A DNA stretch of 64,000 bases from an uncultured Flavobacteriales bacterium (GTDB lineage: Bacteria; Bacteroidota; Bacteroidia; Flavobacteriales_D; Sanyastnellaceae): positions 62,001-126,000 of the forward strand of contig CALLLH010000003.1 of assembly GCA_938082505.1 (NCBI GenBank). The letters are read 5' to 3'. A model generated the notes under the pieces. The model was not told the origin of the DNA. It saw nothing but the letters and a program-made list of their open reading frames with translations, and searched no databases. Numbering within the stretch: position 1 is the first letter of the stretch; each line of letters opens with the position of its first letter. Shown piece after piece: positions 17,377 through 25,536 of the stretch. Position numbers and translations under genes: made by a program.

Positions 17377-17799
17377 ATGTCCGGATTGAACAAAGTGATG
17401 CTGATCGGTCGGCTCGGCAAGCCACCGGCCCTGCGCTGGCTCGAAAGCGGACAGGCCATGTGCAAGCTGTCCATTGCCACCTCGGAACGCTACAAGGACA
17501 AATCCGGCCAGCTGCACGAGCGGACCGAATGGCACCAGGTCGTGTTGTGGCGGGAACTGGCTGAAACCGCAGACCGCCTCCTTGAAACAGGTCAACAGGT
17601 CTTCATCGAAGGCCGGTTGCGCACCCGCTCTTGGCAATCCGCAGAGGGTTCCGAGCACCGGGCCACTGAAATCGTGGCGGACCGGCTGGAAATCCTCTCG
17701 CCGAAGGGCGGTACCGGCACCGAAGATGCCTCCAACGATGCCGCTGATGCCGGCTCTTCGGGACCCCACCCCATGGATTCCTCACCCCTGCCCTTCTGA
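17377..17799 (+). CDS. ssb: Single-stranded DNA-binding protein
   Basis: 140 residues from the ATG at 17377, three codons inside the track ORF. OB-fold protein that coats single-stranded DNA in replication and repair. It starts MSGLNKVMLIGRLG and contains RTEWHQVVLW, typical of SSB. After about residue 110 comes a flexible acidic/Gly/Ser tail ending SSPLPF, an SSB-Ct tip with hydrophobic P-L-P-F but fewer acids than the usual DDxPF. Its TGA shares its last base with the next start (ATG at 17799), so it is translationally coupled to gldE-gldD. A TACTTTG-like box lies 7 bases upstream. Confidence 0.93.
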   Translation: MSGLNKVMLIGRLGKPPALRWLESGQAMCKLSIATSERYKDKSGQLHERTEWHQVVLWRELAETADRLLETGQQVFIEGRLRTRSWQSAEGSEHRATEIVADRLEILSPKGGTGTEDASNDAADAGSSGPHPMDSSPLPF

Positions 17800-19691
17800 T
17801 GGTCGACCTCTCGGGAATCCACGTTTGGATTGCGGCTGCGACATCATTGATGCTGCTGCTGGCCAGCGCTTTCATTTCCGGAAGCGAGATTGCCTTCTTC
17901 TCGCTGGACCCCCAGGAAAGGAAGTCCCTCGAGGACTCCGATGACAGCAGATCCAAACTCGTGCTGTCCCTGCTCAACACGCCGGATGCCGATCGAGGTC
18001 CGCGTCAACTGCTGGCCACCATCCTGGTGCTGAACAACACGGTGAACATCCTGATCATCCTGCTGTCCACAGTCATGCTGCAGCATTGGCTCGATGAACT
18101 CCCCCCGGTGGTCGGAACCCTGCTCCATGTCTTCGGGGTGACTTTCCTGATCGTCCTGTTCGGCGAAGTCCTGCCCAAAGTGTATGCCAACCGTTACCCT
18201 CGGGCCCTCGCCGAGCGCATGGCCAGGGTACTCAGCCTGTCCAAGGGCGTTCTGCGCCCGGTCTGGCATCCGCTGAATGCCATGGCCTCATGGCTCTCCC
18301 CCCGCAAGGGAATGGCCACAGAGCTCTCCGTGGAAGACCTCGAGCACGCGGTCAATGTGACGGACTCGGGAGAGCGGTCCGAGGAGGAAAGCCGCATCCT
18401 GAGCGGCATCGTGAACTTCGGCTCAAAGGATGTCAAACAGATCATGCGTCCGAGAACGGATGTGACCTCCTTTGCCCATGATCTTCCTTGGTCAGCACTG
18501 AAGACGGCCATGGCGGAATCGGGATTCAGCCGCGTGCCCATCCATGAGGAGGGGCTGGATCAGATTCGGGGCATCCTCTATGCCAAGGATTTGCTGCCCC
18601 ACCGCGGAGAGGAGAGTTTCGATTGGAATTCCCTCCTCCGGCAGCCCTTTTTCGTGCCGGAGAACCGGATGATCGACGACCTGCTCCGGGACTTTCAGTC
18701 CATGAAGGTGCACCTGGCCGTGGTCGTCGACGAATATGGGGGCACCAGCGGCATCGTCACCCTCGAAGACGTGATCGAAGAGATCGTAGGGGACATCGCC
18801 GATGAATTCGACGATGAAGACGTGCTGTACTCAAGGGTCGACGAACGAACGGTGGTCTTCCAAGGCAAGACCGCGCTGGTGGACGTTTACCGCATCCTCG
18901 ACATCGATGGAGGCAATTTCGAGTCCGCCAAGGGCGAGAGCGACACCCTTGGTGGCTTCGTCGTGGAGCAATTGGCCCGCCTTCCCAAACCCGGCGAGTC
19001 GCTGGTCTTCGATGGCATACAGTTGTTGACGGAGGCCTCCGATCGGCGGAGGGTACTCCAGGTGAAAGTCGTACTTCCCGAAGATGGGGGAGGCGCAAAG
19101 GGAGGCGTTGCCGGCATCGGCCGCAGCGGATTGGGCACCCTGCTCCTCCTGGGCTGCCTGGCATTGGGTTGGGGATGCTCCTCCCCTCCACCTGTTCCCC
19201 GGCCCGCCGGCTATTTCCGAATCGCCATGCACGACACCACGTACAGGGAGGTCGCATTGGACTGTCCCGTGTCCCTGTCCATGTCCTCCATTGCCCTGCT
19301 CGAACCCGTGCAGGATTTTGCACCGGACAGTTGCTGGTTCAACCTCGTATATCCCGGTTACCAGGCCAGACTGCATTGCACCTATGCAGGCGGAGTGGAC
19401 CTGGAGGCGGTCGCCGAGGACGCTTTCCAACTGGCCTATGAGCATGAGGTCAAGGCCGATGCCATCCAAATGCGCCAGCGGGATTATGCCACCGGAGGGC
19501 AGTCCACCATCTGGCGCATAGCCGGGGATGCGGCGAGCCCATTGCAATTCCTCTGTACGGATGGACAGAATCAATTCCTGCGGGGTGCTCTTTATTTCGA
19601 AGTCCGGCCGAACGGGGATTCCCTGGCGCCGGTGGTGTCCCGCATGGAGTTGGACATCGAATACCTCATGGCGAACCTCCATTGGCTGTGA
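17799..19691 (+). CDS. GldE-GldD fusion: CNNM/CBS membrane protein joined to gliding lipoprotein
   Basis: 630 residues in one open frame. Residues 1-430 are GldE-like: a DUF21/CNNM membrane domain (ISGSEIAFFSL, then membrane spans to about 150), a CBS pair (about 200-330, including VVDEYGGTSGIVTLED) and a CorC_HlyC domain (about 345-430). A Gly-rich linker then leads to a hydrophobic segment with candidate lipobox cysteines C453 and C460 (LLLLGCLALGWGC). The remainder matches GldD: CWFNLVYPGYQ, YEHEVKADAIQM, LQFLCTDGQNQFLRGALYFE. GldD is required for gliding and type IX secretion in Flavobacterium. The two are normally separate adjacent genes. No in-frame ATG or GTG lies in the junction; only a TTG at 19131 could restart translation. 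Confidence 0.88.
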   Translation: MVDLSGIHVWIAAATSLMLLLASAFISGSEIAFFSLDPQERKSLEDSDDSRSKLVLSLLNTPDADRGPRQLLATILVLNNTVNILIILLSTVMLQHWLDELPPVVGTLLHVFGVTFLIVLFGEVLPKVYANRYPRALAERMARVLSLSKGVLRPVWHPLNAMASWLSPRKGMATELSVEDLEHAVNVTDSGERSEEESRILSGIVNFGSKDVKQIMRPRTDVTSFAHDLPWSALKTAMAESGFSRVPIHEEGLDQIRGILYAKDLLPHRGEESFDWNSLLRQPFFVPENRMIDDLLRDFQSMKVHLAVVVDEYGGTSGIVTLEDVIEEIVGDIADEFDDEDVLYSRVDERTVVFQGKTALVDVYRILDIDGGNFESAKGESDTLGGFVVEQLARLPKPGESLVFDGIQLLTEASDRRRVLQVKVVLPEDGGGAKGGVAGIGRSGLGTLLLLGCLALGWGCSSPPPVPRPAGYFRIAMHDTTYREVALDCPVSLSMSSIALLEPVQDFAPDSCWFNLVYPGYQARLHCTYAGGVDLEAVAEDAFQLAYEHEVKADAIQMRQRDYATGGQSTIWRIAGDAASPLQFLCTDGQNQFLRGALYFEVRPNGDSLAPVVSRMELDIEYLMANLHWL

Positions 19692-20482
19692 TGCTGATCC
19701 TCGACCCGGGTGGTACCCGGCTGAAATTCGGGCAGTCGGAAGGGGGGGAGATCATCTCGGCCGGCAGCATCCCGTGGAATGCACTTTTGGACGCAGGCGG
19801 CTTTGATTGGTCGCGGGAACCTGCGCTGGAGGGGGGGTCGCCCGGGGACGACCACCATGCGGCGTGGATCATCGACCGACCTGCACCCCCCGCAGCGGGA
19901 AGTGATTGGCAGGCCCGTTTCCTGGCGGCTTCCAAAGGCAGGTTGACCCGCCTTGTTGCGCTTGACCTCACATCTGACCCCGGGTTTGAAATCGATTACG
20001 ACGGGGGATTCCCAGGAGCAGACCGCCTTGCGGCTGCGGTCGCCTGCCATCGGCGCGACCCGGAGGGCAGTTTCGTCATCATCGATGCGGGGACCTGCAT
20101 CACCGTCGATCTCCTCTCCCCGGGCAGATGGCGCGGTGGAGCCATTCTGCCCGGCATTGGATTGCAAGCCTCCGCGATGGCCAATGCAGGACTTCCCATC
20201 CTTTCGGCTGATGCACCGGGAATCTGGAATATTGACCCTGGGCCACACGGGGCCCTGGGCACCTCCACACAGGGGGCAATCAAGGCCGGAATCCCATGGG
20301 CGACGCGGCATTCAGTGGAATCCGTGGTCCGTGCATTCCTGGACATCGATCCGCGGGCAGAGGTGGTCATCACCGGTGGAGACGCCCCACATTTTGCTGG
20401 TTTGGGGGGATGGCGGACTTTCGCAGACCCAAATCTTGTTCTTCGCGGCGGAGCCCTGCTGCTGAACGAGCGATGCCCATGA
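19691..20482 (+). CDS. coaX: Type III pantothenate kinase
   Basis: 263 residues from the ATG at 19691, which overlaps the gldE-gldD stop (TGATG). It phosphorylates pantothenate in the first step of CoA synthesis. It is an ASKHA-fold kinase: the N-terminal phosphate motif is LILDPGGTRLKFG (usual form DxGNT), the substrate segment GADRLAAAVA corresponds to the GxDR motif, and the second phosphate motif is VIIDAGTCITVD. PGIGLQASAMA and the late ITGGDA complete the set. It lies between gldE-gldD and an outer-membrane protein with overlapping codons on both sides, so it is part of a tightly packed operon. Confidence 0.92.
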   Translation: MLILDPGGTRLKFGQSEGGEIISAGSIPWNALLDAGGFDWSREPALEGGSPGDDHHAAWIIDRPAPPAAGSDWQARFLAASKGRLTRLVALDLTSDPGFEIDYDGGFPGADRLAAAVACHRRDPEGSFVIIDAGTCITVDLLSPGRWRGGAILPGIGLQASAMANAGLPILSADAPGIWNIDPGPHGALGTSTQGAIKAGIPWATRHSVESVVRAFLDIDPRAEVVITGGDAPHFAGLGGWRTFADPNLVLRGGALLLNERCP

Positions 20483-21897
20483 CACGACCCACACGATTTT
20501 CAATGGCACAGACACTTGCGGCTTTCGCACTGTTCGCGCTGCTCTGCCACAATGTCTCGGCCCAATCGACCTACGCGCCATACTCCCGTTTTGGTCTCGG
20601 ACATCTCCAATCCGGGGCAAGCGTAGCCCAGATGGGCATGGGTCAGATGGGCGCCGCCTGGACGGACCGCAGCCACTTGAATACGGTCAACCCTGCGGCG
20701 GCGGCATTTCTCACCCGCACCACCTTCTCGGGGGGCTTCCACATCCGCTCGGAACGGATTTCGGAGGGGGATTCCACCGCCCAAGGCGAATTGGGTGGAC
20801 TGACCCAGATCGCTTTCGCCCTCAAACGGGCAGGCGGGAAATCGGCCTTCAGTTTCGGCCTGCAGCCCCGATCCCAGTCCGGCTATGACGTGTCACAAGT
20901 ATTGACAGATGATGTGGCGGATGAATACGAAATCCGCTATTCCGGTTCGGGAGGGCTGACCCAGGCCCATGCAGGCTATGCCCGTCGATGGGAATCCATG
21001 GCCTGGAGGAAGTTCGCGGATGACCAAGGGGTCGTCACGGACAGTGTACGGATCATCATGAGCGGCACCGGATTTGGCGCCCGCTTCGAACAGGTCTTCG
21101 GCGGCATGGTCAAGGCCCGGACCATCGACATCGCCAACCCCATCTTCGTCGACACCCGTGTCCAGACCAACGATGTGCACCGCAACGCCGGATTCACCAT
21201 GGGGCTTGTGCGCGAACAGCTTGTGTCGGCCTCCTTCGACAAGGACCGGAAACTGGTCAAGAGCGCTCTCCTGCGCCTCGGAGCAGTGGCCCGGCTGGGG
21301 CGTGGACATACTACGGAACGCTCCACGCGGTGGGCTTCCTGGCAGACCCTGTCCACAGGACCGTTGGAGGTGGATTCGGTCCATGCCACGGAGGAGACTT
21401 TCTCGATGCGTCTGCCCCTCGAGCTGATGCTCGGAATCGAATGGGAGGAGAATGCGCGCAGTGGCGCACGCTGGCGCCTTGGCGGCGAATGGCGGCAGGC
21501 ACGCTGGTCGACCGTGGACGGCGACCTGCTTGATCCCGGGGTCTCCTGGGTTGATGACCAAGGCATTTCATTGGGGATGTCCCTCACACCGCGCGGACTG
21601 GATGACGCCCGGAACATGTGGCAACGCTCGACCTACAATGTGGGTTATCGCAGCCAATCCGGTTATCTCCTGATCAACCAGGGGGGCATCGCCTCCACCA
21701 CATGGAGCGCCGGATGGTCGATTCCCATGCTGGGCTCACGGTCCGGTTCGAGCCTGAATACAGCCGTCATGTGGAATACCACATCGACAGGAGGAGAGGT
21801 CGGCGGCCTCACAGAAGATGGGCTGGGCTTCATGGTCGGCTTCTCGCTGCACCCCTTCTTCAAGAACCAGTGGTTGGTCCCGAGGCGGTACGATTGA
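20479..21897 (+). CDS. Outer-membrane beta-barrel protein, function unknown
   Basis: 472 residues from the ATG at 20479, overlapping the coaX stop by ATGA; the track's start at 20296 is inside coaX. A signal peptide (residues about 9-31, ending NVSA-QS) leads into YAPYSRFGLGHLQSG. This YSRFGLG opening is common to a group of uncharacterised Bacteroidota outer-membrane proteins often next to coaX. The mature part is rich in aromatic residues alternating along predicted strands and ends in FKNQWLVPRRYD. The substrate is unknown. A GCACCC/GGGTGC hairpin (21907-21933) follows the stop. Confidence 0.75.
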   Translation: MTRPTRFSMAQTLAAFALFALLCHNVSAQSTYAPYSRFGLGHLQSGASVAQMGMGQMGAAWTDRSHLNTVNPAAAAFLTRTTFSGGFHIRSERISEGDSTAQGELGGLTQIAFALKRAGGKSAFSFGLQPRSQSGYDVSQVLTDDVADEYEIRYSGSGGLTQAHAGYARRWESMAWRKFADDQGVVTDSVRIIMSGTGFGARFEQVFGGMVKARTIDIANPIFVDTRVQTNDVHRNAGFTMGLVREQLVSASFDKDRKLVKSALLRLGAVARLGRGHTTERSTRWASWQTLSTGPLEVDSVHATEETFSMRLPLELMLGIEWEENARSGARWRLGGEWRQARWSTVDGDLLDPGVSWVDDQGISLGMSLTPRGLDDARNMWQRSTYNVGYRSQSGYLLINQGGIASTTWSAGWSIPMLGSRSGSSLNTAVMWNTTSTGGEVGGLTEDGLGFMVGFSLHPFFKNQWLVPRRYD

Positions 21898-24219: not shown

Positions 24220-25536
24220 ATGGACCCCGACCCTTCGTCATTCCTTCTGCTGATCGCCGCATTGGTGGCTTCGGCCTTCTTCTCTGGCATGGAGATCGCC
24301 TTTGTCTCCGCCAATCGATTGCAGGCCGAACTGGACAGAAACCAGGGCGGATGGGCGGGTCGACTCGTGGAATACCTCTTGCGCAAGCCCGAGCGCTTCA
24401 TCGCCTCCATGCTGGTGGGCAACAACCTCGCCCTCGTCATCTATGGACTCCAGTCCGGTGCGCTCATCGCACAGCAGCTGTTCGGTGTGCCCAATTGGGA
24501 ATCCGCGTCCAACCCCTTCGCCGCCCTTGCTGCCCAGACGGGCATCGCAACAGTCGTGGTGTTGGTCACCGCTGAATTCCTGCCCAAAAGCTTTTTCCAT
24601 GGAAATCCAAACCGCTGGCTGCGGTTTTTCTCCGTCCCCCTGGCCATCGTGTACACCCTGTTGTGGCCACTCGCCAAAGGGGTGCTGGCCTTGAGCCACT
24701 TGTTCCTCGGCAAACAACGGGATGATGGCAAGGTGGATCAGCTGGGGTCCGTCGACCTCGATGATTTCGTCCGCAACCTCAACCAAAGGCTTGTCCAGGA
24801 TGAGGAAACCACCTTGGACAACGAGTTGCAGATCCTGCAGAATGCCTTGGACTTTTCAAGCCTCAAGGCGCGCGATTGTCTGGTACCGCGCAATGAGATT
24901 GTCGCACTCGACGCTACCGCCACGCTTGAGGAACTCGACCGCTGTTTCGCGGATACGGGTTTGAGCAAGGTGGTCATCTACCGGAATTCGATCGACCACG
25001 TCATCGGTTACGTCCATTCCAAGGATCTGCTCCGCCGGTCCGCCGAGCGGCTGGAGCCCGCCATGGGCACGGAATTGGCCCGCTATCTGCATCCGACGAT
25101 CATCGTGCCGGAACCCATGGGCGCGCAGGACATCCTGACCGAGTTCATTCGCCGAAAGCGGCACCTCGCCGTCGTCGTGGACGAATACGGAGGGACTTCC
25201 GGAATCCTCACCATGGAGGACATTGTCGAGGAGCTCATCGGGGATATCGAGGATGAACACGACAGTGATGCCCTGGTTGAGATGGAAATCGGACAGGGCC
25301 ACTATCGCTTCAGTGCGAGACACGATGTGGACGACCTCAATGCGCGCTTTGACCTGAATCTGCCTGAAAACGAGGCTTACGAAACGCTTGGGGGGCTGGT
25401 TCTCCACCATACTGGGGAGATCCCCGGCGAAGGCGACCGCCTGGATTTGGAGGGATATGCCGTGCTGGTGACGCGCGTCGACGGGGCTCGGATTGTCCTG
25501 ATTGAAGTCTTGAGAAAAGAGCCCTCCGAGGGCTGA
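24220..25536 (+). CDS. CNNM/CBS-pair/CorC_HlyC membrane protein (hemolysin family)
   Basis: 438 residues. DUF21/CNNM membrane domain (SAFFSGMEIAFVSANR, then spans to about 160), CBS pair (about 215-335, including VVDEYGGTSGILTMED) and C-terminal CorC_HlyC domain (about 350-430). Proteins of this type transport or sense Mg or other divalent ions; the old name hemolysin is misleading. It is a paralogue of the GldE half of 17799-19691, sharing SGxEIAFxS and DEYGGTSGI, but it has no GldD-like tail. It follows the lptC pair after 54 bases. Confidence 0.88.
   Translation: MDPDPSSFLLLIAALVASAFFSGMEIAFVSANRLQAELDRNQGGWAGRLVEYLLRKPERFIASMLVGNNLALVIYGLQSGALIAQQLFGVPNWESASNPFAALAAQTGIATVVVLVTAEFLPKSFFHGNPNRWLRFFSVPLAIVYTLLWPLAKGVLALSHLFLGKQRDDGKVDQLGSVDLDDFVRNLNQRLVQDEETTLDNELQILQNALDFSSLKARDCLVPRNEIVALDATATLEELDRCFADTGLSKVVIYRNSIDHVIGYVHSKDLLRRSAERLEPAMGTELARYLHPTIIVPEPMGAQDILTEFIRRKRHLAVVVDEYGGTSGILTMEDIVEELIGDIEDEHDSDALVEMEIGQGHYRFSARHDVDDLNARFDLNLPENEAYETLGGLVLHHTGEIPGEGDRLDLEGYAVLVTRVDGARIVLIEVLRKEPSEG

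Follow-up and report, generated by a model that had tools for sequence, protein, structure and literature searches.

How can a lipoprotein be made when its signal segment lies in the middle of a longer polypeptide? The question is raised by gldE and gldD in a 64,000-nucleotide stretch of DNA from an uncultured Flavobacteriales bacterium (the window), where the two form a single open reading frame. GldD is a lipoprotein needed for gliding, for the function of the type IX secretion system (T9SS), and for the stability of GldJ and GldK (PMC9127263, PMC8481357, PMC9870892). A literature search revealed no description of a GldE-GldD fusion and nothing relevant on an internal lipobox or type II site in fusions; within the scope of this search, no internal type II site like the present one has been described. 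From the comparisons given below, we consider it probable that gldE-gldD encodes one precursor, in which an internal type II signal peptide would export GldD, with Lgt lipidating the protein and LspA cutting it.

The frame extends from 17799 to 19691 on the forward strand, starts with ATG, ends with TGA, and contains 630 codons and no internal stop. Both parts are complete and pass the cut-offs of their families, which bears out the claim of the earlier note that GldE and GldD occupy one continuous frame. The GldE part (residues 1–425, 17799–19073, + strand) matches TIGR03520 over residues 18–425 with 483.1 bits (cut-off 376.05), covering positions 3–406 of the 408 of the model. The match of the GldD part (residues 460–630, 19176–19688, + strand) to TIGR03512 covers residues 455–629 with 138.2 bits (cut-off 120; positions 5–181 of 182), and its match to PF25593 scores 147 bits for a cut-off of 27. 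The order of Pfam domains is CNNM (PF01595, residues 17–192), CBS (PF00571, 281–330), CorC_HlyC (PF03471, 346–426), and GldD_lipo (PF25593, 465–629). The GldE part thus has the features of its family, i.e., the CNNM membrane domain, the CBS pair, and the CorC domain, in that order. The signal-like segment of GldD is internal, coming after 442 residues, and not N-terminal as in the GldD family. Because the domain passes the family model, we class the fused GldD as a family member whose architecture is a variant one.

Structural comparisons agree with this assignment for the first half of the protein, as a Foldseek search with the GldE part matches the CNNM/CorC structures 7m1t, 4hg0, and 7cfg, which are also matched by sequence. 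The AlphaFold model of GldD residues 467–630 (model m5fda5c66d4e6, window positions 19197–19688) has a mean pLDDT of 84 and a pTM of 0.81, and the predicted periplasmic domain is of the alpha/beta type. Neither a fold search with this model (E < 0.001) nor a sequence search with GldD found a match in the PDB. The model of the whole fusion (pTM 0.33, pLDDT below 50 over residues 430–479) is uninformative on the linker and on the arrangement of GldD relative to GldE.

Hydropathy analysis reveals three transmembrane-like segments ahead of the CBS domains (residues 9–27, 71–89, and 104–122) and a fourth hydrophobic segment (about 443–459) ahead of GldD. The junction consists of a glycine-rich linker of variable sequence (residues 426–442, 19074–19124, + strand), with K434 and R442 preceding the hydrophobic segment, and of a signal-peptide-like stretch ending in the lipobox cysteine C460 (19125–19178, + strand). 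A second candidate cysteine, C453 (19155–19157, + strand), lies within the segment, and the junction also contains an in-frame TTG codon (L445, 19131–19133, + strand). In CNNM/CorC proteins the CBS domains are cytoplasmic. Hence, the fourth segment would cross the membrane outward and GldD would be periplasmic, which supports the earlier suggestion that the fusion is topologically sensible.

The fused gene belongs to a densely packed series of genes that also includes mutY, ssb, and a gene for a type III pantothenate kinase. It shares bases with both neighbors, its ATG with the TGA of ssb and its TGA with the ATG of the kinase gene at 19691 (TGATG in both cases). The frame directly after the kinase gene (20296–21897, + strand) partially matches a model of the outer-membrane assembly protein BamG, with 175 bits, below the cut-off of 250. 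About 6 kb downstream of the start of gldE there is a second CNNM/CorC-type protein (24220–25536, + strand, 438 residues) that is around 30% identical to GldE, and many members of the family have a second CNNM match at about this distance. Two core genes of gliding and T9SS, SprA and GldJ, were searched for in the genome: SprA is present, with 2345 bits and above its cut-off, and a GldJ-like frame scores 378.8 bits in one stretch and 62.4 bits in another, without reaching the cut-off of 458. The genome also encodes LspA.

The fusion had been taken as a local oddity, and this view does not hold, as it recurs across the class Bacteroidia. The search among close relatives that the earlier note proposed finds a single frame in 14 of the 16 genus members with gldD, each from a separate assembly; in the other two (G003 and G007), gldE and gldD are separate and in different frames. 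Elsewhere in the family, open-frame lengths gave no sign of a fusion in any of about 88 genomes with gldD. In a class sample of 395 genomes, 26 further genomes have a match through both parts with no stop, in a frame of approximately 630–690 codons, and all 26 proved to be single frames when their DNA was re-read. The fused genes are thus spread over nine family groups (f1, f10, f16, f17, f22, f32, f39, f40, and f72), i.e., eight besides that of the window, and the lengths of their linkers differ by whole codons only. Among the matches listed for the phylum sample, the only fusion free of stops was that of the window itself.

The phylogenetic tree was built from 139 GldE domains, with linker and GldD left out, and includes 40 fused and 99 split sequences. 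At least 14 changes between the fused and the split state are required on this tree according to two reconstructions, a count that does not separate fusions from fissions. The number is 14 both for a quick mixture-model tree and for a more careful tree from which the longest-branched rows were removed. Fused and split genes often occur within one genus (g73, g79, and g89). For example, in g73 the fused L057 and L058 and the split L114 and L116 have very similar GldE sequences, and the whole junction, including the signal segment, differs between them. Hence, losing a stop codon would not by itself account for the fusion in this genus. In several other split pairs (L080–L092), the two genes share one frame with only stop codons between them, and the loss of these would fuse the genes.

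If the internal segment is a type II signal peptide, its lipobox cysteine should be maintained. It is kept in all 40 fused sequences, and position −1 is G, S, or A in all of them, for a background of 20%. The clades containing only fused genes have a summed tree length of 7.1 substitutions per site. Across them the cysteine shows 100% identity, the 24 residues ahead of it average about 25%, and positions +1 and +2 after the cysteine have identities of 0.24 and 0.17. A PROSITE-type lipobox pattern (PS51257) is matched at the conserved cysteine in 35 of the 40 fused and in 73 of 87 split sequences, and has no match in the GldE parts (16,649 residues in all). In the window's species this pattern fails at C460, which has W458 at position −2, and fits C453. 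The earlier note had proposed both cysteines as candidates; both are there, in a junction as it described, but only C460 is conserved, being invariant in all fused homologues, whereas C453 is not. With cleavage at C453 the hydrophobic core would be as short as about 10 residues. C460 is preceded by G459, by the uncharged residues 443–459, and by the basic R442 and K434. The conserved cysteine of the lipobox in this species is C460, which would most likely be the one lipidated, although C453 fits the pattern better.

Among split genes, the cysteine is sometimes absent. GldD proteins with an N-terminal transmembrane-like anchor and no lipobox cysteine are found in L024, L031, L094–L101, and L109–L112 (genera g3, g17, g9, g4, and g20, of the same family), and in these cases a former lipoprotein seems to have turned into a plain anchored membrane protein. 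The GldE tree shows three changes of state for the cysteine, all of them in split lineages. With only three changes, its retention is not statistically special to fusions, and the contrast in cysteine loss between fused and split genes was dropped as an argument.

The fourth segment might instead be a permanent transmembrane anchor, in which case the product would be an uncut four-helix protein whose GldD part, exposed to the periplasm, would stay covalently linked to GldE. Twelve split rows of the genera mentioned above (g3, g4, g9, g17, and g20), with their anchored and cysteine-less GldD, make a GldD fixed in the inner membrane seem viable. The uncharged stretch ahead of the cysteine is also longer in fused proteins (median of 17 residues) than in split lipoproteins (14), though shorter than in the cysteine-less anchored GldDs (20.5), and the lipobox at C460 is poor in the window's species. 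However, an idle cysteine should have changed over 7.1 substitutions per site, and this one is invariant in 40 sequences and always follows G, S, or A. We therefore regard the uncut protein as unlikely, though deserving of some weight, and it is possible that some of the precursor is left uncut even if processing occurs.

Two products could also arise if translation restarted inside the junction, e.g., at the TTG at 19131, the fused frame being then incidental. Split pairs provide a reason to consider this: in 74 of 96 of them the two genes overlap, 4 bases being the most frequent extent (29 pairs), and translational coupling is probable for them. The TTG codon is in frame and immediately precedes the hydrophobic segment, and an ATG, GTG, or TTG is found in the checked stretch of 33 of the 40 fused genes. 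When all three codons are allowed, the contrast with split genes (98 of 99) is weak, with a median p of 0.25. For ATG alone, the difference is clear: an in-frame ATG precedes the signal segment in 93 of 99 split genes and in 11 of 40 fused ones, being absent from 29 of the latter and from six of the former. Supported branches provide about 11 independent pairs; on average, 8.6 of these show the expected difference and almost none the opposite one (sign test, median p of 0.004). In addition, five fused genes from several lineages (L005, L016, L056, L069, and L077) have no ATG, GTG, or TTG in the junction, and GldD is therefore not made there from a standard start of its own. Both the loss of ATG and these five genes indicate that gldD does not keep its own start once it is fused. 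As for the TTG at 19131, it is not conserved, and its product would begin with MGTLLLLGC, a signal peptide lacking a basic n-region. Finally, in 13 species belonging to one clade the frame has stayed open, for which there would be no need if it were incidental. A restart at this TTG, which the earlier note had named as the alternative, is thus disfavored, and we find the production of two proteins in this way improbable.

An explanation by faulty assembly or base calling, with the loss of a stop codon or a frameshift as the result, which the same note had considered and which might be suspected from the metagenomic origin of the related genomes with named records, has a negligible chance of being correct and was rejected, as homologues carry the same fused frame in independent assemblies of 14 species of the genus and of eight further families, with linkers differing by whole codons.

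The loss of the start together with the maintenance of the processing site is the pattern expected of a precursor cut after translation. The earlier note had left open whether a lipobox is processed in such an internal position, and the comparative evidence argues that it is, as the cysteine and its small neighbor are always kept whereas the ATG of gldD is lost. In the precursor that we favor, GldE would be a CNNM/CorC-type membrane protein with three transmembrane segments and cytoplasmic CBS and CorC domains, followed by a short cytoplasmic linker and by the internal hydrophobic segment acting as type II signal peptide, which would carry GldD across the inner membrane to the periplasm. The conserved cysteine, for which C460 is the likeliest candidate, would then be lipidated by Lgt, and cleavage by LspA just ahead of it would yield two products: a GldE of some 459 residues that retains the fourth hydrophobic segment, and GldD as a mature lipoprotein of some 171 residues. 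The two proteins would be produced at a 1:1 ratio and at the same spot, and the fusion would take over from the coupling by overlap of most split pairs. We infer the topology, the lipidation, the cleavage, and the work of GldD next to GldE from these sequence comparisons.

Flavobacterium johnsoniae has gldE followed by gldD; overexpression of gldE is reported to have partly suppressed gldB mutants in this species, and to our knowledge no gldE mutant has been obtained. The genes, reportedly described as separate by Hunnicutt and McBride in 2001, belong to the same two families and stand in the same order as the two parts analyzed here. The difference is that F. johnsoniae has two genes and two primary products, whereas here a single frame encodes both parts and the lipoprotein signal peptide is internal to the precursor. 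Compared with the CNNM/CorC ion transporters (7m1t, 7cfg, and 4hg0), the GldE half shows the complete series of domains in order and matches by both sequence and fold; GldE is ion-transporter-like, i.e., a putative transporter of the CNNM/CorC type. We know of no such transporter with an extra C-terminal membrane segment and a periplasmic lipoprotein domain. The closest precedent known to us is FbcH, the cytochrome b/cytochrome c1 polyprotein of Bradyrhizobium japonicum. There, a membrane protein and its membrane-bound periplasmic partner are also made as one precursor that is cut at an internal signal sequence. FbcH is cut by type I signal peptidase, whereas the site in gldE-gldD is a lipobox, as expected for LspA, and the gldE-gldD fusion, unlike FbcH, recurs many times.

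We are thus inclined, with somewhat less assurance than for the processing itself, to regard gldE-gldD as a natural bacterial polyprotein that would be matured by LspA at an internal lipobox, would have arisen repeatedly across Bacteroidia, and would imply an equimolar working pair of GldE and GldD at the inner membrane. The retained lipobox makes the internal LspA site directly testable. Where annotation assigns a single name to each gene, GldD may be overlooked in genomes with the fusion, or be called part of GldE. The earlier note had taken the fusion as a hint that GldE and GldD normally work together, and the 14 or more changes of state strengthen it: they are strong Rosetta-stone evidence that the two proteins are a working pair, active on the cytoplasmic and the periplasmic sides of one inner-membrane unit. 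Recurrent fusion, the overlap of split genes, and the lineages with an anchored, cysteine-less GldD all suggest that GldD would act at the inner membrane beside GldE. The pairing matters because GldD is required for gliding and T9SS secretion, and because GldE has hardly been studied.
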